This document shows, piece by piece, positions 1 through 32,300 of a stretch of 32,300 nt of DNA. The position numbers and the translations under genes were made by a program. Position 1 is the first letter of the stretch. Each line of letters starts with the position of its first letter. Source of the stretch: an uncultured Planctomycetaceae bacterium (lineage in GTDB: Bacteria > Planctomycetota > Planctomycetia > Pirellulales > UBA1268); assembly GCA_903917235.1 (NCBI GenBank), contig CAIWZS010000519.1, positions 1-32,300 of the forward strand, given 5' to 3'. Under the pieces are notes generated by a model. That model made no database searches and was not told the origin of the DNA. It was given only the letters and a program-made list of their open reading frames with translations.

Positions 1-774
1 CGCAATCCCGAGCACGAGGTGTCGATCGCTCTGGTGGGCACGTACGCGGAGCATCGCGACGCCTACAAGAGCATCTACGAGGCGCTCGACCCCGGAGGCA
101 TCGCGCACCGCACGCAGGTGCGGGTGCAGCCGATCAAGAGCGAGGACATCGAGCGCGAAGGGGCCGAGCGGCTGCTGGCGGGGTTCGACGGGCTCGTCGT
201 CCCGGGCGGATTCGGCGAACGGGGCATCGAGGGGAAGGTGGAGGCGGTGCGGTTCGCGCGGGAGCGCAGGCTGCCGTTCCTCGGCATCTGCCTCGGGATG
301 CAGTGCGCCGTCATCGAGGTTGCCCGTCACGTCGCGGGCCTCGCCTTGGCGCACTCGACCGAGTTCGCCCGCGACACGCCGCATCCGGTGATCTGCCTCA
401 TGGAGGAGCAGCACGGCGTGGTGCAGAAGGGGGGCACGATGCGGCTGGGTGCGCAGCCCTGCGTCCTCTCGGACGGCACGCGATCGGCCGCCGCGTACGG
501 CCGTGAGTCGATCTCCGAACGCCATCGCCATCGTTATGAATTCAACCCGAAGTACCGGCAGGCCCTCGAGGCGGCCGGTCTCGTGATCGCCGGCACGAGC
601 CCCGACGGGTCGCTCGTCGAGATCGTGGAACTGGCCGATCATCCGTGGTTCGTGGCGGTGCAGTTTCATCCCGAGTTCAAGAGCAAGCCCACGTCCGCGC
701 ATCCGCTCTTCTCCGGGCTCGTGGCGGCGGCGGTGGAACGGCATGCCGGCAGCGCGTGGGTGACCGAAGGCTGA
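1..774 (+). CDS. pyrG: CTP synthase, C-terminal glutamine amidotransferase domain (5' truncated by window edge)
   Basis: Open frame runs to the window start. Class I GATase motifs: [31 protein letters not shown], and the C-terminal [24 protein letters not shown] typical of PyrG. Confidence 0.95.
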
Positions 775-946
775 GGCGGGCCGCACGCGGAGAAAGGGAA
801 GCAGGTCGGGGGTCGCGCGCAGCCGCCGGTGAATCTTCGACTGCACCGAGCGATGCACCATGCCGACAGGGCCTCCACCGTCGAAATCCGGCGGCGGCGA
901 GCACGATCCCCCGACCGGCGCGTTGGGCGAGTATCGCCACGTCCAT

Positions 947-970
947 TCGCACGCCTGGAGGCGTGCGCCC
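947..970 (+). promoter_or_regulatory. Dyad element copy 1: TTCGCACGCCTGGAGGCGTGCGCC
   Basis: 8-bp perfect stem (CGCACGCC/GGCGTGCG), TGGA loop, 83 nt upstream of the ALDH start at 1054. Matches 20530-20553 at 22 of 24 positions. Confidence 0.6.
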
Positions 971-1053
971 CGGGGGGCGAGGCAGGCCATTCCCCGAGTC
1001 GAACCCTGGTTCTTTGTCGTGACATTCCTCCCAGCATCCCGGACCCCACCCGC

Positions 1054-2541
1054 ATGACCGCTCCTGCTCCCACGGCGCAAGACGTCGCCGCCATCGTTCG
1101 TCAGGTGCTTGCGGAACTGCGGCAGACCGGCGCCCCGGCGTCACGGCAGGCCGCGAGCGCCGGCGCTGTGACCGGCCGCTCGTTCGCGGGCCACCACGGC
1201 ATCTTCGCCTCGGTCGACGAGGCGGTCGCCGCCGCCGCCGAGGCGTTCCATCACCTCGAGCGACTGGGCGTCGAGGGACGGAAGCGGGCGATCGCGCACA
1301 TCCGCCGGATCGCGATCGGCGACGCCGAGGAGCTCGGCCGCATGGAGTTCGCCGAAACGGGGATCGGCCGCCTCGAGCACAAGATCGAGAAGCTCAAGGT
1401 GCTCGGGGAGAAGGTGCCCGGCGTCGAGTTCATGACGAGCGAGGTCTTCAGCGGGGATCACGGCCTGGCCGTCATCGAGCACGCCCCGTTCGGCGTGATC
1501 GCGGCGATCACGCCCGTGACGCACTCACTGCCGACGATCGCCTGCAACGCGGTCAACATGATCGCGGCGGGCAACACCGTCGTCGTGAACCCGCATCCGA
1601 GCGGACGGAAGGTGGCTGCCGAGGGCGTGCGCCGGTTCAACGCCGCGATCCACCGTGATCTCGGCGTCGACAACCTCGTCTGCCTCGTCGCCGAGCCCAC
1701 GCTCGAGAGCGCCGCCGAGCTCTTCGCCCATCGCGGGGTGAAGCTCATCTGCGTGACCGGAGGCCCCGCCGTCGCGCGGGCGGCGCTCCAGTCGCCCAAG
1801 CGCGCGATCGTCGCGGGGCCCGGCAATCCGCCGGTGGTCGTCGACGAGACCGCCGACCTCGACCACGCCGCCCGTTCGATCATCCAGGGCGCCGCCTACG
1901 ACAACAACCTGCTCTGCATCGGCGAGAAGCAGGTGTTCGTGGTGGAGTCGGTCTTCGACCGGATGATGGTCGCGATGGAGCGGGCCGGTGCGCTGCGGCT
2001 CCACGCCGGTCAGGTCGATGCCCTCACGAAGCGGGCCATCGTCTGGGCCGGCGAGGGCGCCCATCGCCACCAGGTGCCCTGCAAGGATCTGCTCGGGAAG
2101 GACGCGGCGCTGCTCGCCCAGGCCGCCGGCGCCACGCCCCGCGACGGACTCGAACTCGTCTTCGGCGAGACCGACGTCGACAATCCCTTCGTGCCGGTCG
2201 AGCAGATGATGCCCTTCCTGCCGTTCGTCCGCTGCCGGGACGCGGACGAGGCGATCGAGCGGGCGCATGAGAGTGAGCACGGGTTCCGTCACACGGCGAT
2301 CGTCCACTCCACGAACGTCCGGACGATGACGCGGATGGGCCGGCTGCTCGACACGACGCTCTTCGTCAAGAACGGGCCGAGCGTGGCCGGCCTCGGCCTC
2401 GGCGGCGAGGGCTACCTCTCGTTCTCGATCGCGACGCCCACGGGTGAAGGCGTGACGACCCCGCTGACCTTCACGCGGCAGCGCCGGTGCACGCTGGTCG
2501 ACGACCTCCGCATCCTCGGCAGCCCCGGAATGGAGGCCTGA
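1054..2541 (+). CDS. BMC-associated CoA-acylating aldehyde dehydrogenase (EutE/PduP family)
   Basis: NPHPSGRKVAAEGVRRFNAAI, CVTGGPAVARAALQSPKRAIVAGPGNPPVVVDETADLDHAARSIIQGAAYDNNLLCIGEKQVFV are EutE/PduP-like. ATG at 1054 chosen over the longer ORF (829) because it places a helix (TAQDVAAIVRQVLAELRQ) at the N-terminus. Flanked by BMC vertex protein genes. Confidence 0.9.
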   Translation: MTAPAPTAQDVAAIVRQVLAELRQTGAPASRQAASAGAVTGRSFAGHHGIFASVDEAVAAAAEAFHHLERLGVEGRKRAIAHIRRIAIGDAEELGRMEFAETGIGRLEHKIEKLKVLGEKVPGVEFMTSEVFSGDHGLAVIEHAPFGVIAAITPVTHSLPTIACNAVNMIAAGNTVVVNPHPSGRKVAAEGVRRFNAAIHRDLGVDNLVCLVAEPTLESAAELFAHRGVKLICVTGGPAVARAALQSPKRAIVAGPGNPPVVVDETADLDHAARSIIQGAAYDNNLLCIGEKQVFVVESVFDRMMVAMERAGALRLHAGQVDALTKRAIVWAGEGAHRHQVPCKDLLGKDAALLAQAAGATPRDGLELVFGETDVDNPFVPVEQMMPFLPFVRCRDADEAIERAHESEHGFRHTAIVHSTNVRTMTRMGRLLDTTLFVKNGPSVAGLGLGGEGYLSFSIATPTGEGVTTPLTFTRQRRCTLVDDLRILGSPGMEA

Positions 2542-2546
2542 TCGCC

Positions 2547-2807
2547 ATGCAGCTCGCCCGGATCATCGGCACCGCGACCGCGACGGTGAAGCACCCGTCG
2601 CTCGGCGGCACGCGGCTGCTCGTGGTGCAGCCGCTCCTCGCCGACCGCGCGCGTCCGGACGGAGATCCTCAGCTCGCGATCGACACGATCGCCGCGGGCG
2701 TCGGGGACGTCGTGGTGATCACGAGCGACGGTCGTCTCCTGCGGGACGTGCTCGGCAGCGACACGACGCCGGCCCGGTGGAGCACGATCGCCCTGGTGGA
2801 TCGATGA
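2547..2807 (+). CDS. BMC vertex (pentamer) shell protein, EutN/CcmL family (first copy)
   Basis: 86 aa MQLARIIGTATATVKHPSLGGTRLLVVQPL...DTIAAGVGDVVVITSDGRLLRDVLG...WSTIALVDR. Stop overlaps the next start (ATGA). Confidence 0.93.
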   Translation: MQLARIIGTATATVKHPSLGGTRLLVVQPLLADRARPDGDPQLAIDTIAAGVGDVVVITSDGRLLRDVLGSDTTPARWSTIALVDR

Positions 2808-3625
2808 GCGAGGTGCAACGCATGAAGGATTCCCGCTCCACGCTCGATGCGGCACTGGTCGCGCGGCTGGTCGGCGAGGTGGTGCAGCGGATCCGGGACG
2901 CCGGAGCGACGCAGAGCGCGTCCACAACCCGGGCGGGTGGCTCGCCGCCCCCTGCCGCCGGTTCGGCCCCGGCTCCGGTCGCCACGGCGGCCCCCGCGGC
3001 ATCACCCGGTGGACACGTGCTCGCCGACCATGTCGTCACGCTCGCCGTCCTCGAGCGCGTGCCGGCCGGAACGCGACGCGTGGTCGTGGGAGCGCGTGCG
3101 GTGCTCACGCCGTCGGCGCGCGAGCACGCGGCCGACACGGGGATCGAGATCGTGCGGCAGGCGGGGACGCCCACGACCGCCGGCGCGGCGCCGCGGATGT
3201 TTCTCGTGGCGCATGCCGCCTGCCCGGCGGACCCGAGCGCGAAGATGGCCGCGATCGCCCGGGCCATCCCGGGCACGCAGCGTCTGCCGACCACGGGGCT
3301 GGCCGATGTGCTCGCGGCCCTGGCGATCCACGCCGGTCGGGATGGGGCACGCGCCGTGCTCCTGACGGGACGGCCGCACCTGGCCGTCGCCGCCGCGAAT
3401 CGGCATGCGAGCCTCCGGGCGGTCACGGGGCACGATGCCATCCGCGTGAAGGGAGCCGTGGCCGAGTGTGCGGCGAACCTGCTCGTGCTCGATCCGGCCG
3501 CTCTCTCCTCGAGCGCCCTCGAGCGGCTCTGCAGCGACCTCATGCTCGGCGCCGACGCGACGCCGCCGACCGAGCTCGCGACCGCACCATCCACCCCCTG
3601 CGGCTGCAAGGGAAAGCACCATTGA
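2804..3625 (+). CDS. BMC-locus protein of unknown function with candidate N-terminal encapsulation helix, Ala/Pro-rich linker and CGCKGKHH C-terminus
   Basis: Starts in an ATGA overlap with the BMC-P gene. N-terminal STLDAALVARLVGEVVQRIRDAG helix, A/P-rich linker, then VLADHVVTLAVLERVPAGTRRVVVGARAVLTPSAREHAADTGIEIV. Family assigned only by context. Confidence 0.75.
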   Translation: MSEVQRMKDSRSTLDAALVARLVGEVVQRIRDAGATQSASTTRAGGSPPPAAGSAPAPVATAAPAASPGGHVLADHVVTLAVLERVPAGTRRVVVGARAVLTPSAREHAADTGIEIVRQAGTPTTAGAAPRMFLVAHAACPADPSAKMAAIARAIPGTQRLPTTGLADVLAALAIHAGRDGARAVLLTGRPHLAVAAANRHASLRAVTGHDAIRVKGAVAECAANLLVLDPAALSSSALERLCSDLMLGADATPPTELATAPSTPCGCKGKHH

Positions 3626-3704
3626 GCGCCACCCCGTCACCATCACGTGAGTCGTGTCGCAGCCGGAAGGTCCGGTCGACCTCCCCCACGCCCGAGACGC
3701 TCCG

Positions 3705-4058
3705 ATGAGACTCGCCCGCACGATCGGCACCGTGACGCTCGTCGAACCGCATGCCTCTATGCGGGGCGGTGCGCTGCGGCTGCTCGTGCCGCTCGGACCG
3801 GACGACCTCGCGGCCGGGGACGGGGCGGCCGAGCCGATCGTGGCCTGGGACGACCTGGGCGCGGGTGACGGTCAGCTCGTCGCCTTCAGCGAGGGGGGCG
3901 AGGCGGCACAGCCATTCCGGCCCGCGGACAAGCCGGTGGACGCCTACGTGGCCGCCCTGATCGACAGCCTCGACCTCGCCGGCACGACCGGCTTGGCCGG
4001 CACAGGCAGCACGACCCGACATCCGACCGCGACCCGAAACGTGGGCCAGAATCGATAG
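3705..4058 (+). CDS. BMC vertex (pentamer) shell protein, EutN/CcmL family (second copy, with C-terminal extension)
   Basis: MRLARTIGTVTLVEPHASMRGGALRLLVPL...WDDLGAGDGQLVAFSEG...DKPVDAYVAALIDSLDL; same family as 2547..2807 and diverged from it. Confidence 0.9.
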   Translation: MRLARTIGTVTLVEPHASMRGGALRLLVPLGPDDLAAGDGAAEPIVAWDDLGAGDGQLVAFSEGGEAAQPFRPADKPVDAYVAALIDSLDLAGTTGLAGTGSTTRHPTATRNVGQNR

Positions 4059-4126
4059 AGACGACCTGTTTTCGCCAACCCTTTTTTGACGCTCGAGCGT
4101 TCACGCCATCAGGAGCAGGAGCCGCC

Positions 4127-5017
4127 ATGGCAGCCACCCCAGCCATCAAGACCACCGACAAGTCGCTCGCCCAGCTCAAGGAGGAGATCTGCGACATCGG
4201 CCGCCGGATCTACGCCAAGGGCTTCGCCGCCGGAAACGACGGGAACATCTCGTTCCGCCTCGGGCCCAACGAGGTGCTCTGCACGCCGACGATGATCTCG
4301 AAGGGCTTCATGAAGCCGTCCGACCTCTGCATCGTCGACATGGAGGGCAACCAGCTCGCCGGCCAGCGCAAGCGGTCGAGCGAGGTGCTGCTCCATCTGA
4401 CGATCATGAAGGAGCGGCCCGACATCAACTCCGTCGTCCACTGCCACCCCCCGCACGCCACCGCCTTTGCCGTGGCGCGGGAGCCGATTCCGCAGTGCGT
4501 GCTGCCCGAGGTGGAGGTCTTCCTCGGCGACGTGCCGATCACGCGCTACGAGACGCCGGGCGGACAGAAGTTCGCCGACACCGTCAAGCCGTACGTGAAG
4601 AAGTCGAACGTGGTGATCCTCGCCAATCACGGTACCGTGAGTTTCGGCGAGACGGTCGAGAAGGCCTACTGGTGGACGGAGATTCTCGACGCCTACTGCC
4701 GGATCCTCATGCTCGCCAAGGATCTCGGTCGTGTCACTTACCTCACGAAGCAGGAGACGAAGGAGCTGCTCGACCTCAAGTCGAAGTGGGGCTACACCGA
4801 CCCGCGGCTCGATCCGGGCATGGAGAACTGCGACATCTGCGCGAACGACGTCTTCCGGTCGAGCTGGGGCCAGACGGGCGTCACCCGCAAGGCGTTCGAC
4901 GCGCCGCCGCCGATGGGGGCGGATCCCGGCAACGCCGTGCGGCCGTCCGGGGCGATCGACCACGAGGCACTCGTCAAGGCGGTGACCGAGCAGGTCTGCA
5001 AGGAACTGGGGCTCTGA
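4127..5017 (+). CDS. Class II aldolase/adducin family protein (fuculose-/rhamnulose-phosphate aldolase-like), BMC-associated, with candidate C-terminal encapsulation helix
   Basis: GFAAGNDGNISFRL, SVVHCHPPHATAFAV and VVILANHGTVSFGETVEKAYWWTEILDAYCRI carry the class II aldolase zinc His residues. C-terminal linker then IDHEALVKAVTEQVCKELGL. Confidence 0.92.
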   Translation: MAATPAIKTTDKSLAQLKEEICDIGRRIYAKGFAAGNDGNISFRLGPNEVLCTPTMISKGFMKPSDLCIVDMEGNQLAGQRKRSSEVLLHLTIMKERPDINSVVHCHPPHATAFAVAREPIPQCVLPEVEVFLGDVPITRYETPGGQKFADTVKPYVKKSNVVILANHGTVSFGETVEKAYWWTEILDAYCRILMLAKDLGRVTYLTKQETKELLDLKSKWGYTDPRLDPGMENCDICANDVFRSSWGQTGVTRKAFDAPPPMGADPGNAVRPSGAIDHEALVKAVTEQVCKELGL

Positions 5018-5071
5018 GCCCGCTGCCGCGTTCGCGGCGGCATCCATCCACATTCCGACGGAAACACGACC

Positions 5072-6007
5072 ATGAAGGTGGGCATCATCGGTGGCGGCGG
5101 CATCGTCGGGTCGTCCGCGGGCTTCGCCCTGCAGCTCGGCGGCATCGTGCACGAGATCGTGATCGTCGATGCCAACGCCGACCTGGCCGACGGGCAGGCC
5201 CTCGACATGCTCCACGGGGCTCCGGCGATCGCCGACCAGGTGATCCGCTCCGGCGGCTACGACACGCTGGCCGATGCCGATCTCGTGTGCATCACGGCCG
5301 GACTGCGGCGGAAGCCCGACGAGAGCCGCCTGGCGCTCATCAACCGCAACGTGGTGCTCTTCCGCTCGATCCTCGCGGAGCTCAAGTCGAAGGGGCTGCG
5401 CGGCGACGCCACGGTGCTCGTGGTGAGCAATCCCGTCGACATCCTGACGTACCTCGCCGAACAGGAGCTCGGGCTGCCGGCGGGGCGCGTCATCGGGCTC
5501 GGCACGCTCCTCGACACGCTCCGGTTCCGTGCCCTGCTGGCCATGAGCCTGCAGGCGCCGGCGACGCAGGTGCAGGCCGTGATCCTCGGCGAGCACGGCG
5601 ACAGCATGGTGCCGATCTGGTCGAGCGCGAGCGTGGGCGGCCTGCCGCTGGAGAAATACCCGGGGTTCTCCCACAAGCTCGGCGACGACGTCTTTCAGCG
5701 CGCGAAGACGAGCGGCGCCGAGATGATCAAGAAGAAGACCGGGGCGGGGTTCGCGGTCGGCGTCTCGATCGCCGAGGTGATCCACGCGATCGCGCTCGAC
5801 GCGAAGCGGGTGCTGCCCGTCTCCACCGTGCAGCGGGGGTGCTACGGCCTCCGTGACGTGGCGATCTCGGTGCCGACGGTCGTCGGCCGGAGCGGCGCGG
5901 AGCGGGCGCTCGAGATCGAGCTGTGGCCCAAGGAGATGCAGGGCCTCAAGCGGAGCGCCGCGGTCCTCCGCGAGACGCTCGGCCAGGTGCTCACCACCGC
6001 CGGGTGA
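5072..6007 (+). CDS. Lactate/malate dehydrogenase family protein, BMC-associated
   Basis: MKVGIIGGGGIVGSSAGFAL Rossmann motif, VSNPVDILTYLA, GTLLDTLRFR, VILGEHGDSMVPIWSS catalytic His. Confidence 0.92.
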   Translation: MKVGIIGGGGIVGSSAGFALQLGGIVHEIVIVDANADLADGQALDMLHGAPAIADQVIRSGGYDTLADADLVCITAGLRRKPDESRLALINRNVVLFRSILAELKSKGLRGDATVLVVSNPVDILTYLAEQELGLPAGRVIGLGTLLDTLRFRALLAMSLQAPATQVQAVILGEHGDSMVPIWSSASVGGLPLEKYPGFSHKLGDDVFQRAKTSGAEMIKKKTGAGFAVGVSIAEVIHAIALDAKRVLPVSTVQRGCYGLRDVAISVPTVVGRSGAERALEIELWPKEMQGLKRSAAVLRETLGQVLTTAG

Positions 6008-17819: not shown

Positions 17820-20465
17820 TCAGAACTCGATCTCACCCCACACCGCCGGGTCGTCGATCGCGGTGCTCCGAGGCGTGGACGACCAGATGGAGCGGTCGAT
17901 CCGGCCACGTGTCAGGGCGTGGGAGCGACCGACGTTCGCCCGCCAGATCGTGCCGGGGGCGGGCGGCGGGGCGTCGAGCGTGCGCAGCGGAATCGATACG
18001 AGCGCGAGCCAGCGCCGAGGCTCCCGCTCCACGCGTGTCGTGCACTGCCAGTCGCCGTTCCAGCCTGCGTCGTCCCGGCCGTGACGCGGGTCCATGGCTT
18101 CGGTGACGAGTCCGCGCACGGCCTCGGAGCGCGACTCCGGATGCGGGCCCGCCTGGAACCGGTAGCACACGTCGCGATTCCCGGGAGGGGCGAGGCGGAT
18201 GTCGATCGACTCGTGGCCACGCAGGTCGCGGTCGCCGCCGAAGGCGGGAAACTCCGTCGCTCCGTCGGGCCCGAGCTCGCATGCCAGTCGCACGTGCAGA
18301 TGCGACGGGTCGTGCATGATCTGGAGCGTCGTGGGCAGCGGCCGGCCGTGGAACGGTGGCAGGATGGTGAGGGTGCGTGACTCGGCCTCCCGCCACTGCG
18401 GCGAGTCGAGCGTGACGGGCCCGGCCGTGGCGAGCGCCGTCACCCGCTGTCGGCCGGGTGGCGGCAGCGTCCGCATCGCGGCGGTGTCCCAGTTGAGGCA
18501 GGTCTCGGCATACGGTTCCTGGTAGCCGTCGTGGGCCAGCCGCAGGTGGTTGGCGTCGTGGCCCGCGAATGGAAAGAGCACGTGTGCCCACCCGCCGTCC
18601 GCGACGGCCCGCCCCCGCGCGTCGTAGAGCGACGCGATGAAGGCGTTGCGGCCATCGATCGCGTCGAGGAGGCGGTCGCGCGATGGCCCGTCGGGCTCGA
18701 CCTGGTAGGCGTGATGGAGATGGACGACGCGGGCGAGGTGCCGCAGGTAGTCGAACTCCCTCCGCACGAGGGCCAGCCGGGTCCGCGGCTTGCCGCCGGT
18801 GGCGATCCGCTCCGCGTGCGTGAGGTCGTCGTCCAGTGCCGCGAGGACACCCGGAGGATAGAGGAACGCGATCAGCTGGAACGGGTCGGTGACGGTCTTG
18901 CGCGGCCGGCCGTCGAGCGGACGGTAGGTCCAGAGGTCCGACCTCGTTCCGAGGTGATCGGAATAGAGCATGATCGCGTGGTTCAGGCGTTCGTAAAACG
19001 ATCGCATCGGCGGGGCGGCCGTGCCGAAGGCGGCGTCGATGAACTCGGCCAGCAGATCCTGCGCGCGATTGTGCTCGGGGTCGTCGAACATCCGCCCCAT
19101 CACGTAGTACACCGGCCCCTCCAGGCCGAAGAGCTGCCCGGGGCCGTCGCGGTGGATGGCGTGGATGCGATTGGCCGCCAGCCGCCGGACCTGGGCCTCG
19201 ACATGCGCCGGCGTGCGCATCGGCGTATACCGGGAGCCGAGGTTGGGGCACCAGTTGTAGACATAGCCCGAGAATCCCCGCGGCACCTCGTAGTCGCGCC
19301 ACGGAGCGATGTCGTCCTCATTCGTTCCCGTGAGCATCACGCTCGTGTTCTCGGGAAATGCCCGGAACGATCGGGGCGGCGCGGCGGTGAGGATGTACGA
19401 CATCATCGTGATTTGACGCCCCGGGTGCGACCGCGCGAGCCGCTCGGCGACGTCGCGGTTGAAGATCCAGATCTTCTCCCCCCAATCGTCACCCGTGCCG
19501 TAGAGGTCGCGGCACGGCTGGCACTCGCAGGCGCGAAAGCCGTCGGGCTGTCCGAGGTCCACCGACTCGTAGCCACGCTCGAACCACCCGGCGATGTCCC
19601 GCTCGATGAGTCGCTGCACGTCGGGATTCGACAGGCAGTACTGCGCGTTGCCGCCGCGCGGATCGAGCCGCATGCCGCCCACGAGGGCGAAGTATTCCGG
19701 ATGCTCGGCGAAGAAACGCTCGGGGGGCACGGCCCGTTCCCACGTGTGGCTTCCGAAGACCTCGTCCACCCGTGGAAACCGGTTGAGTGCCAGGTCGTAG
19801 AAGCCGCCGCCGGCCGGGTGCGAGGTGTTGAGCCGGAGGACGGGGGTGCGGCGCACGTCGAGATCGGCGGGAACCGAGATCGTGGTGCGCGGAAGGAACT
19901 CGATGGCCGGGGACGCGAGCAGGTCGACGTCTGCCGCCGCGCTCACCGGGCGATAGGGTGCGATGTCGGGATACAGGAAGCGCACGCCGAGATGCTCCCG
20001 GGCGAAGTCGGCCGCGGCCTTGACCGTGCCGACGCGGTCCCAGTTCGGCCGCCGCGGATTGTCCGTCTCGCCGCGCGCCGGGGCGTCACGGCCGGCGACG
20101 AGCACGTCCCGGCCCGCCACGCGCACGACGGTGTGCCAGCCGACGAGCGCCCCCGTGTCCACGCCGGCGGCCCGGGCGGCGGCGGTGTCGCCGAGGCAGA
20201 TCGCGGGCCTGCCGGGATCGCGCTCCGCCTCCGTCACGACCGGCACCGTGAAGCCGCTCGCGCGAAAGGCGGTCTCGAGCAGCCGTGCGGCCTGACGGAT
20301 GCAGTCGCCGATCTCGGCGCTCGGCGGTCGGTCCGGCACGACGATCTGGTAGCTGCAGCGACCCTCGGAGGCGAGCACGAGATCGGCCGCACGTGCCGTC
20401 ACGGGCAAAAAGGCGACGCCGAGCACCGCGAACCAAAGCTGCGAAGAAACCGCGTGCCGAACCAT
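17820..20465 (-). CDS. Secreted DUF4838 domain protein (carbohydrate-active-like) with C-terminal CBM9-like domain
   Basis: Signal peptide; PPERFFAEHPEYFALVGGMRLDPRGGNAQYCLSNPDVQRLIERDIAGWFERGYESVDLGQPDGFRACECQPCRDLYG; TIWRANVGRSH near the C-terminus. Start could also be 20489. Confidence 0.85.
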   Translation of the reverse strand: MVRHAVSSQLWFAVLGVAFLPVTARAADLVLASEGRCSYQIVVPDRPPSAEIGDCIRQAARLLETAFRASGFTVPVVTEAERDPGRPAICLGDTAAARAAGVDTGALVGWHTVVRVAGRDVLVAGRDAPARGETDNPRRPNWDRVGTVKAAADFAREHLGVRFLYPDIAPYRPVSAAADVDLLASPAIEFLPRTTISVPADLDVRRTPVLRLNTSHPAGGGFYDLALNRFPRVDEVFGSHTWERAVPPERFFAEHPEYFALVGGMRLDPRGGNAQYCLSNPDVQRLIERDIAGWFERGYESVDLGQPDGFRACECQPCRDLYGTGDDWGEKIWIFNRDVAERLARSHPGRQITMMSYILTAAPPRSFRAFPENTSVMLTGTNEDDIAPWRDYEVPRGFSGYVYNWCPNLGSRYTPMRTPAHVEAQVRRLAANRIHAIHRDGPGQLFGLEGPVYYVMGRMFDDPEHNRAQDLLAEFIDAAFGTAAPPMRSFYERLNHAIMLYSDHLGTRSDLWTYRPLDGRPRKTVTDPFQLIAFLYPPGVLAALDDDLTHAERIATGGKPRTRLALVRREFDYLRHLARVVHLHHAYQVEPDGPSRDRLLDAIDGRNAFIASLYDARGRAVADGGWAHVLFPFAGHDANHLRLAHDGYQEPYAETCLNWDTAAMRTLPPPGRQRVTALATAGPVTLDSPQWREAESRTLTILPPFHGRPLPTTLQIMHDPSHLHVRLACELGPDGATEFPAFGGDRDLRGHESIDIRLAPPGNRDVCYRFQAGPHPESRSEAVRGLVTEAMDPRHGRDDAGWNGDWQCTTRVEREPRRWLALVSIPLRTLDAPPPAPGTIWRANVGRSHALTRGRIDRSIWSSTPRSTAIDDPAVWGEIEF

Positions 20466-20529
20466 CACACCCCATCGATACGCACCCATCTTCGCTTCCT
20501 TGTCAGCGTCGTGTCCCGGCCCCGATTGT

Positions 20530-20553
20530 GGCGCACACCTCCAGGTGTGCGAA
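20530..20553 (-). promoter_or_regulatory. Dyad element copy 2: TTCGCACACCTGGAGGTGTGCGCC (minus strand)
   Basis: 8-bp perfect stem (CGCACACC/GGTGTGCG), TGGA loop on the minus strand, 64 nt (or 40 nt) upstream of the DUF4838 gene. Differs from copy 1 only by a compensatory stem pair. Confidence 0.6.
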
Positions 20554-20744
20554 CGGGCCCCCATCCCAGGCGACCGGATTCCTTCCAGAGATTTGCTCTC
20601 AGAGGCTGCACGCGTTCACGCCCCGCCGGTGTCCTTTCTCGCGTTACGCGATGGTAGTCCGATGGCCGCGTGAGTGTCACACGCGATGGCAATCACGCGA
20701 GACGCAAACAACTGGGCACCGGCACGGCCGCCTGGGGGAAGCAA

Positions 20745-25729: not shown

Positions 25730-26779
25730 TCAGAACGCCCCATCGACGACCCCGCCGTCCGCCTTGCCCCCGAGCCGCTGGTACATCGTGTGGTCGATCG
25801 AGGCCGCCAGGGCCTTGGTCGATCCATCGCCGAAGAGGAACTGGGCCGCCCCGGGGTGACGCGAGCGGAATCCCCACGAGTAATTCCAGTTGTTCTTCGC
25901 GAAGCACTGCGGATTCGGCGCCCCTGCTGCCGTCGCGGCGGCTTGGGAAGTAAAGCACGTGGTCATCGTGTTGATTGGCACGACGGTGGACGCATGGGCA
26001 TTGTTGCCACCGTTGTAGCTCCAGTATCCCTCGACGTGATCGGTGCAATCCATGATCACCTCGCCCACGAAAATTGTCTTGCTCAAGCCGTCGGACACGT
26101 TCTCGAGGGTGCACGGTCCTCCATAACGAGAAAACACGCCCGACGTACTGTTGGGAAGGGGACCGCCGTGGCCCCAATCGCCGGCTGGTGACTGCCGAAA
26201 GCCCTGGAACGGCTGGCAGTTCGTATCGTTCGAGGGCGAGGCCTGCGAGCCGAGGCTCCCGCTGTAACTCCCGAGTGCCCAACCGTTCATCGGGTTACTG
26301 TTGTTGTGACGCAGTGAAGTATCCGACCCGCAGCGTGCGAACGGGAGCTCGAAGCTGCGCAGCAGTTTTCCGCCTCCCATGTCCTGCGTGCGTCGGTCGC
26401 CGTTCGTCTGACCTGCGGGCGGCATGTCGATCTGGTCGAACAAGGTCGCCTGTTCCGCATACGGCAGGATGAACGCATGCCAGCCAAGATTGTGACCGAC
26501 GGCATTGCCCGTGACCGTCGTGCTCGGAGTCCAAAGGACCGTCGGGGCGGCCGGAGGCAGCAGTTTTTTCGCGCTCACGTACCCCTGGATCGCGAGGCCG
26601 TACTGCTTCAGGTTGTTGCTGCAATTGCTCCGTCGCGCGGCCTCTCTCGCCGACTGCACCGCCGGCAGGAGCAGGCCGATCAGAACCGCGATGATCGCGA
26701 TCACGACGAGAAGTTCGACCAACGTGAACGCCGGTCGCGCACTCCGGAATAGGGACATCTCAGACCGGTAGGAAAGCAT
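25730..26779 (-). CDS. DUF1559 pseudopilin, prepilin-type N-terminus and H-X9-DG C-terminus (copy 1)
   Basis: [48 protein letters not shown]-terminal RHPGAAQFLFGDGSTKAL. Alternative start at 26758. Confidence 0.95.
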   Translation of the reverse strand: MLSYRSEMSLFRSARPAFTLVELLVVIAIIAVLIGLLLPAVQSAREAARRSNCSNNLKQYGLAIQGYVSAKKLLPPAAPTVLWTPSTTVTGNAVGHNLGWHAFILPYAEQATLFDQIDMPPAGQTNGDRRTQDMGGGKLLRSFELPFARCGSDTSLRHNNSNPMNGWALGSYSGSLGSQASPSNDTNCQPFQGFRQSPAGDWGHGGPLPNSTSGVFSRYGGPCTLENVSDGLSKTIFVGEVIMDCTDHVEGYWSYNGGNNAHASTVVPINTMTTCFTSQAAATAAGAPNPQCFAKNNWNYSWGFRSRHPGAAQFLFGDGSTKALAASIDHTMYQRLGGKADGGVVDGAF

Positions 26780-27140: not shown

Positions 27141-28262
27141 ATGTTCGCGTCCTTGGTGAGTGTGCGCCGCTTTGAACACAGGCTTCATGCCCTGCGGCGC
27201 GGGCGCGTGGCAGGGAACGGTTCGTGCATCCCCCTTCGGCGATCTCCGGGCTTCACGCTTGTCGAGCTGCTCGTCGTGATCGCGATCATCGCGGTGCTGA
27301 TCGGCCTGCTCCTTCCGGCCGTCCAGAGCGCGCGGGAGGCGGCCCGACGCAGTTCCTGCAGCACCAATCTCAAGCAGGTCGGCCTTGGCCTCCAGTCGTA
27401 TCACTCGGCCCGCGGCCGGCTGCCGCCCGGGGGCTTCACCGATGCGCCCGCGATTGGCGGCAGCGGCGGCGGCTGGGGAAGCGCGTGGACCGTCTTCCTG
27501 ATTCCCTACATCGAGATGCAGGACCTCTTCGATCGCTTCATCTTCACGGGTGGTTCGGGATGGGGGGGCGGTGCATCCAACAACTGCCGCGAAGCGTCGA
27601 ACGTGCCGATGAAACTCTACCTCTGCCCGTCGACCTCAGCCGGGACGATCGCCCCGTCCCCGCACAGCGGCTCGAACATCTCCCGCAACCACTACGTGGG
27701 GATCGCAGGGGCGGTCGCAGGACTGATCCCCGGGCACACGGAAACCCGCTTCTTCACGAATAGCGGTGCGGCGGGATGCTGCAGCGGCGGGATCGCCGGA
27801 GGGAACGGCGTCTTGTATCCGGGGGGATTCGTGAATTTCCGCGAGATCTCCGATGGCCTTTCCAGCACGATGGCCGTCGGTGAGCAGAACGACTGGCTGT
27901 TCACGCAGAACGGTTCCCGCGTGAGCTGGGGCACCGGGCTTCTGCACGGCTGGATGATCGGCTGGCACTCGCAGGGTGCGCCCAACGGCGGCAACGCCGG
28001 CGATGCCCGGCACTTCCAGATGACGACGATCCGCTATCGCATCAATCAGAAGATGGGCTGGCCTGACGCGCCCGGTAACTGCGGGGCGACCGGCGTGTGC
28101 GAGAACGTCGGCAGCAACGTGCCGCTCAACTCGGCCCATCCGGGCGGCGTGCACACGCTCATGTGCGATGGCTCGGTGCGGTTCGTCAACGACGCCGTCG
28201 CCCTGGACGTCATCGCCCGGCTCGCAACCCGTGACGACGGTCAGCCGACCGGCGCCCAATGA
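27141..28262 (+). CDS. DUF1559 pseudopilin, H-X9-DG protein (copy 2)
   Basis: [64 protein letters not shown] 27141 preceded by GGAGG at 27131. Confidence 0.95.
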   Translation: MFASLVSVRRFEHRLHALRRGRVAGNGSCIPLRRSPGFTLVELLVVIAIIAVLIGLLLPAVQSAREAARRSSCSTNLKQVGLGLQSYHSARGRLPPGGFTDAPAIGGSGGGWGSAWTVFLIPYIEMQDLFDRFIFTGGSGWGGGASNNCREASNVPMKLYLCPSTSAGTIAPSPHSGSNISRNHYVGIAGAVAGLIPGHTETRFFTNSGAAGCCSGGIAGGNGVLYPGGFVNFREISDGLSSTMAVGEQNDWLFTQNGSRVSWGTGLLHGWMIGWHSQGAPNGGNAGDARHFQMTTIRYRINQKMGWPDAPGNCGATGVCENVGSNVPLNSAHPGGVHTLMCDGSVRFVNDAVALDVIARLATRDDGQPTGAQ

Positions 28263-30251: not shown

Positions 30252-31241
30252 ATGCTATCTGTTCAACCGCTGGAACGGGCTCGAGTGAATCGCGTGCGCA
30301 CCGCGTTCACGCTTGTCGAATTGCTCGTCGTCATTGCCATCATCGCGGTCCTGATCGGGTTGCTGCTGCCAGCGGTGCAATCGGCACGCGAGGCGGCGCG
30401 GCGGAACCAGTGCACGAACAACCTGAAGCAGTGGGGCCTCGGGCTCCAGACACATCTCGAAGCGAGGCGAGCGTTTCCAGCTGGCACTGCGGGCGCCCCG
30501 GTGGGCGGATGGGGCGGGTCATGGATGCTGCCGCTGCTGCCGTTCGTCGAGCAGGTGGCCAAGTACGAGGAACTCGACATGTCCCGGCCTTTTTGGGACA
30601 GCACGGCGACGGTCAACATCGCCGCGCTCAACGGCTGGACGTTTGACGCGCTGCATTGCCCATCGAGCACGATGCCGCGAACTGGTGCCGGCATTTCGGG
30701 CTCGGGCCAATCCTCGTCGCACGCGAACTATGTCGCCGTGGCGGGTTCAGCCAGTGAGCCAACGGCACAAACATGGGCCAGTGGCAACGGCATCGTCGGC
30801 TCCGGCGGGATTCTGTTTCCGAATTCCAAGGTGACAGCTGCCGACATACCAGATGGTATGTCGAAGACGCTTGCTCTCGGGGAGCACGGCGCAAACCAGA
30901 CTGATGCCAACAACGCGGCGGTGCATATTCGCGGCAGTAATCCGCACGCGTTTTCGATGGGCTTCAACCGCACGAGCCGGCCGTCGGGGGGCGGTGACCC
31001 TGGTGATCTGCGGGCCTTCAACACCACGACCATCCGCTACGCGATCAATGCCAGAGGGATGGCGAATCAGGCCGGCGTTGGCAGCAACTATGGCAACAAC
31101 ATTCCTCTCAACTCAGCCCATCCGGGGGGCTGCAACACGGGTTTTGGCGACGGCTCGGTTCGCTTTCTCAGAGAATCGGTCCCGCTGAACGTGCTGCAGC
31201 TGATGGGCCAGCGGAATGACGGTCAGACGTATACCGAGTGA
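30252..31241 (+). CDS. DUF1559 pseudopilin, H-X9-DG protein (copy 3)
   Basis: [61 protein letters not shown]. Confidence 0.95.
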   Translation: MLSVQPLERARVNRVRTAFTLVELLVVIAIIAVLIGLLLPAVQSAREAARRNQCTNNLKQWGLGLQTHLEARRAFPAGTAGAPVGGWGGSWMLPLLPFVEQVAKYEELDMSRPFWDSTATVNIAALNGWTFDALHCPSSTMPRTGAGISGSGQSSSHANYVAVAGSASEPTAQTWASGNGIVGSGGILFPNSKVTAADIPDGMSKTLALGEHGANQTDANNAAVHIRGSNPHAFSMGFNRTSRPSGGGDPGDLRAFNTTTIRYAINARGMANQAGVGSNYGNNIPLNSAHPGGCNTGFGDGSVRFLRESVPLNVLQLMGQRNDGQTYTE

Positions 31242-31662: not shown

Positions 31663-32300
31663 ATGTTGCCTTCACGGACTGGACGCAGCCGGGTGCGGGG
31701 ACCATCAACGCGTGGTCCGCGTGTGCCCTTCGCGCCACGCGGGTTCACCCTCGTCGAATTGCTCGTCGTGATCGCGATCATCGCGGTCTTGATCGGCCTG
31801 CTCCTTCCAGCCGTGCAGAGCGCCCGCGAGGCGGCCCGGCGGAGCAGCTGCTCGAACAACCTGCGGCAGCTCGGCGTGGCGATCCACACGTTCGGCGAGG
31901 CGCGGAAGGTGCTGCCGCCGTCGCATTCGGGGGGCGCGCCGCCGGTCGATCGGTTCGGTACCTGGTGCGTCGTGATCCTGCCGTTCATCGAGCAGCAGAA
32001 CCTCTTCGACCTCTTCGATCTCGGGCAGGGCTGGGACGCGGGCCCGAATCCGGGTGCCGCCTCATCGAGCGGTGCCAGCGTGTCGACGTTCCAGTGCCCC
32101 TCGCGCCGCTCCGGTCGGCAGATCAGCGACGGGGCGCCGCAGGTCGGTGCCACGGGCGACTACGCCGTCTCGTCGGTCGCCACCGCGAGCTATCAGCACC
32201 AACACCAGGATTTTTCCGTGCTCCGCGGCGCGATGGTCGGCTCGGGCCCGACGCGGCAGGGGTCCTCGTGGAACGGACGCAGCACGTCTCGAGCCCGGGA
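31663..32300 (+). CDS. DUF1559 pseudopilin (copy 4), 3' truncated by window edge
   Basis: Own translation: [91 protein letters not shown]...; absent from the ORF track as it has no stop in the window. Confidence 0.93.

Follow-up and report, generated by a model that had tools for sequence, protein, structure and literature searches.

Does the 24-nt dyad that precedes an aldehyde dehydrogenase (ALDH) gene of a microcompartment (BMC) operon, and that recurs ahead of a gene for a DUF4838 protein, mark two sugar-use genes under one regulator? We examined this in a stretch of 32,300 nucleotides from an uncultured Planctomycetaceae bacterium (the window; Table 1). The original prediction named three readings: a shared operator, a 5' UTR RNA hairpin, and a REP-like repeat. 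It is the last that copy number, tag, palindrome and extragenic placement bear out, and to these can be added the pairing of copies in a related genome (G015) and filled versus empty sites. With high confidence we assign the dyad to the GTRG-tagged repetitive extragenic palindromes (REPs). The repeat has spread in a handful of species belonging to one planctomycete genus, most likely in the form of REPINs moved by a transposase.

Table 1. Features of the window that bear on the dyad.
Feature	Position	Strand	Remarks
CTP synthase (pyrG), C-terminal part, glutamine amidotransferase domain	1..774	+	Pfam GATase, ortholog contexts; truncated by contig end
Repeat M	797..920	+	~120 nt, two long imperfectly complementary arms (GGTCGGGGG...CCCCCGACC)
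REP copy 1	944..971	-	28 nt, GGGG-CGCACGCC-TCCA-GGCGTGCG-AATG; contains the original 24-mer, 946-969 (+)
BMC-associated aldehyde dehydrogenase (ALDH)	1054..2541	+	Directly after EutN within the operon in the genus; ortholog gaps
BMC operon tail: EutN, uncharacterised protein, EutN, class II aldolase, lactate/malate dehydrogenase	2547..6007	+	
DUF4838 protein	17820..20489	-	Downstream of REP copy 2
REP copy 2	20528..20555	+	28 nt, GTGG-CGCACACC-TCCA-GGTGTGCG-AACG; CACA subtype; 40 nt upstream of DUF4838 ATG

The dyad itself is largely as first described. Its second site, 20530-20553 (-), was placed correctly, and the first, given as 947-970, lies one base further left, at 946-969 (+). The two 24-mers are identical at 22 of 24 positions, and their two differences do pair with each other (G-C versus A-T). 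Each precedes a gene of the same orientation, and the distances to the ATG codons of ALDH (1054) and DUF4838 (20489) are about those originally reported. A search of the window allowing up to three mismatches found two matches in total, both of them these sites, and none was found at the same tolerance in dinucleotide shuffles of the window. The window also holds four related stretches of ~150-190 nt (26552-26740, 27249-27399, 30303-30453 and 31741-31891) with 72-81% similarity, some direct and some inverted; they are perhaps the starts of paralogous genes.

Beyond the window the dyad is abundant. The genome-wide search suggested with the original prediction returned 64 exact copies of a 20-nt core in the source MAG (G000; 4.67 Mb, 553 contigs), 33 forward and 31 reverse, and a reversed-pattern control matched nowhere in that genome. 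With up to three mismatches there were 187 matches, including exact or near-exact copies counted again on the other strand, and we estimate the distinct copies at roughly 100. Among 39 other relatives' genomes the repeat was found only in G006 and G015, both of the same genus as G000, and was absent from the remaining 37. In a class-wide sample of 398 genomes it occurred only in G000 (G006 and G015 lie outside this sample). GTDB contigs carrying the core plus CCAC came from two Planctomycetaceae MAGs (UBA10506 and 49628_E33.1) and from one contig labelled Phycisphaerales. This last contig (L050, LaPlata_bin-2707) is 2.7 kb long, carries two repeat copies and sits in a bin of another class; it is probably misbinned. 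In these searches the family was tied to just three uncultured planctomycetes, close relatives within one genus.

Alignment of 86 copies resolved a near-invariant unit, 5'-GTGG-CGCACGCC-TCCA-GGCGTGCG-AATG-3', on the complement of the strand originally read, with conservation ending at GTGG on one side and at AATG on the other. Such a 28-nt palindrome in high copy is within the 20-40 bp known for REPs, and the tetranucleotide conserved at one end, GTGG in most of the 86, corresponds to the GTAG or GTRG class of REP tags. The T at tag position 2 is retained in 82/86 copies and the G at position 3 in 80/86; copy 1 of the window is one in which the tag is altered (GTGG to GGGG). The G-C to A-T change, originally regarded as compensatory, is what separates the CACG and CACA subfamilies of the repeat.

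The arrangement of copies differs between genomes. G015 contains 27 inverted pairs with GTGG outward, a spacer of 21-23 nt and an overall length of 77-79 bp, which is the inverted, tag-outward and fixed-spacer organization of a REPIN. Most of these pairs join different stem subtypes (CACA/CAAG 8 times, CACG/CATG 7 times, and others), so that the CACA subtype of copy 2 recurs in G015 paired with CAAG. Both window copies are singlets and lack this organization. At the sampled G000 loci same-strand arrays dominate, the few +/- pairs have spacers of 75-80 nt, and no canonical 78-bp REPIN was seen.

Placement was tabulated over 297 kb of G000, in 41 stretches, and over 20 stretches of G015, with genes called by a simple codon-usage script with an out-of-frame background. 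Because most stretches were picked for bearing copies and the gene calls are simple, contrasts weigh more than absolute values. Only 2 of 83 copies in G000 lie inside predicted genes, though coding sequence makes up 87% of the DNA sampled. Copy density per kb falls from convergent through tandem to divergent gaps in both genomes (4.36, 1.54 and 0.70 in G000; 3.33, 1.75 and 1.26 in G015). Likewise, copies occupy 10/23 convergent versus 4/34 divergent gaps in G000 (Fisher p=0.011) and 11/20 versus 4/26 in G015 (Fisher p=0.010). Relative to tandem genes, the two orientations stand at 13:16 in G000 and 10:20 in G015. In these mostly copy-selected stretches the repeat is therefore extragenic and favours convergent and tandem gaps, as REPs of the GTAG superfamily do (PMC3733652). 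With almost every copy outside genes, the highest density in convergent gaps and a balanced orientation, the distribution gives no support to an operator or a 5' UTR element; neither the fixed position and orientation upstream of starts nor the retention upstream of orthologs that would characterize an operator regulon was found.

The genes downstream of the two window copies bear on the same question. On contig C292 of G000 the operon reads DeoR regulator, PTAC, two BMC-H, acetate kinase, EutN and the start of ALDH, and the order acetate kinase-EutN-ALDH is retained in the relatives examined. Since ALDH is an internal gene of the operon in this genus, the original description of the dyad as upstream of the BMC operon is inaccurate. 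In 13 repeat-free members of the genus the gap between EutN and ALDH is -4 to +34 nt, whereas with a REP inside it measures 241 nt in G006 and 189 nt on C292. These short gaps without and long gaps with the repeat indicate that the element entered the operon and is not an ancestral promoter feature. For DUF4838, the only full-length ortholog in the genus is that of G006 (93%). The G006 contig stops 62 nt upstream of the ortholog start, inside a degenerate copy, CGCACACC-CGGC-GGCGTGCG, whose stem has one A.C mismatch; this copy shows decay, not conservation. Because its stem is broken, the preservation of the dyad that was originally claimed holds for the two window copies but not strictly for this one.

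If one transcription factor recognised the dyad and controlled the sugar-use genes BMC/ALDH and DUF4838 together, this would account for the same-orientation placement of both window copies upstream of genes, and for the REP upstream of ALDH in the window, on C292 and in G006. Such a factor is hard to reconcile with 64 or more copies on both strands, many of them in convergent gaps where there is no start codon, with an internal ALDH gene that leaves no room for an operator in relatives, with the same operon lacking the dyad at that place in 13 genus members, or with the broken stem at the DUF4838 ortholog. Many scattered copies are also the outcome that was originally said to count against regulation, and this is essentially what the genome contains. 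We regard a shared operator as very improbable. Position and orientation statistics, together with the ortholog comparison, led us to reject both the operator and a 5' UTR regulator; a 5' UTR hairpin can form only from such copies as fall within a transcript, and is unsupported as a general element.

A different proposal is that the hairpin is transcribed and kept by selection for a role in the host, as with some REPs in E. coli operons; it could act as an mRNA 3'-end stabiliser, an attenuator or a terminator. The stable GC hairpin and the insertion between EutN and ALDH are consistent with this proposal, as is the tendency of G000 copies to lie closer to 3' ends, the median distance being 91 nt to the stop codon and 147 nt to the next start. 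So is stem covariation among 59 distinct sequences, where 21 double changes exceed those in column shuffles (mean 4.7, maximum 12), although relatedness inflates such tests; substrates of a transposase would be expected to covary just as much, and subfamilies account for part of the signal. The repeat is present in three species only, no T-run follows the hairpin (the flanks are CCAC/CCCC and AATG), and the window has no Rfam match. An intrinsic terminator was rejected for want of a T-tract after the GC hairpin, and a known RNA family given the zero Rfam matches in the window. Overall we consider a selected host role unlikely. As a putative side effect of the REP, a hairpin inside a transcript, for example between EutN and ALDH, may alter mRNA stability or read-through.

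How copy 1 came to its present position is a separate matter. In the window ALDH follows the pyrG tail, across repeat M and then the REP, a join found only here among the pyrG loci examined. Neither REP nor M lies behind pyrG at the other pyrG loci of the genus or behind the second pyrG on C336, and a DUF1844-type gene follows pyrG at the loci read (C336, G006 and two others). The contig may therefore be a false join, made at a repeat, between pyrG and the tail of the BMC operon, which would make the position of the REP partly an artefact and is compatible with the dyad being a REP. Also in keeping with a chimera, the MAG may mix related strains, since pyrG occurs again on C336 (94% identical) and another ALDH start is present on C292, and the junction falls in M plus REP, where the longest exact stretch in common with another locus is 45 nt. 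Stretches of this length are short for multi-k assemblers, however, and true recombination at repeats would look identical. G006 and C292 also carry a REP just upstream of ALDH, and the REP at that place is thus real. Repeat rearrangement and assembly chimera both fit the join, and we put the chimera at slightly less than an even chance. A more elaborate history, in which a young REPIN family split the BMC operon, with REPs inserting between EutN and ALDH and repeat recombination in the window's lineage then moving the ALDH-EutN-aldolase half behind pyrG and rewiring the expression of the microcompartment, seems rather doubtful.

Two further observations concern these contigs. Contigs C519, C336, C260 and C292 of the single MAG G000 hold pyrG pieces in duplicate (94-95% identical) as well as two starts of ALDH, which likely reflects mixing of close relatives, or duplication. 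Repeat M has about 10 near-full copies in G000, several of them joined to REP, and many copies in G007 and G010, both of which are without the dyad. In some M copies the arms are conserved and the middle is different, as in a second REPIN-like family.

Differences between close genomes are consistent with mobility of the REP. G000 and G006 are 92-97% identical over their closest shared loci, and some copies are common to both in place. At other loci G000 and G006 differ: an array of three copies corresponds to a single copy (L110/L054), and at another site a ~200-nt insertion difference carries two extra copies (L121/L061). The family most likely spread as paired REPs (REPINs). By analogy with published systems, a Y1 (HUH) tyrosine transposase would act on these in trans and move them in the form of single-stranded hairpins, and singlets, including both window copies, would be remnants or former members of arrays.

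A Pfam Y1_Tnp search of G000 and 40 relatives found no cognate RAYT/Y1 transposase flanked by the repeat. This counts against the REP reading, as weak evidence given that all three MAGs are incomplete and break at repeats; REP-bearing genomes without a RAYT have been noted in the literature. No Y1_Tnp gene was tied to the repeat. None was detected in G006 with this Pfam family, and in G015 the one Y1 transposase is separated by about 7 kb from the closest of the listed copies. The sole Y1_Tnp gene of G000 (L036:1385-2202, contig C468) is on a contig without repeat copies. It lies between 32-nt inverted repeats containing GGTGACAGTCACC, as a separate transposase-plus-TIR unit; these inverted repeats have no sequence relationship to the dyad and so do not link this transposase to its movement.

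Recognition of the repeat disposes of an operator assignment for the BMC operon that was attractive but wrong. The REP copy sits where the operon is interrupted, and the dyad is not a dedicated switch for it. A REP within a microcompartment operon does raise the question of the balance between shell protein and enzymes, and filled and empty sites in close relatives raise that of the origin and persistence of REPINs where no transposase is visible.

A genus-restricted REP/REPIN family in Planctomycetes is apparently undescribed so far, and its features can be set against known systems. The Y1_Tnp gene of L036 with its flanking inverted repeats resembles TIRYT/TIRtrons (PMC3733652), with terminal repeats that differ in sequence from the dyad. 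The dyad itself resembles the GTAG-tagged REP superfamily (PMC3733652) in its 8-bp stem, 4-nt loop, end tag, high copy number, extragenic location, preference for convergent and tandem gaps, and homo- and heterodimers, a likeness of layout and not of compared stem or loop sequences of the published families. It differs in having the tag GTGG instead of GTAG, in its restriction to one genus, and in that no flanking RAYT was found; GTGG is, at the same time, the majority variant in the GTAG-20 family of Opitutus terrae (PMC3733652). Compared with REPINs, in which two inverted REPs carry the tag outward (PMC3116915), the G015 pairs are mostly heterodimers of stem subtypes, a combination known among other REP families (PMC3733652), and the sampled G000 copies are mostly singlets or same-strand arrays. 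They share with REPINs (PMC3116915) the inverted REPs, the outward tag, the near-constant spacer (a 78 bp unit in G015) and the tandem arrays with flanks.
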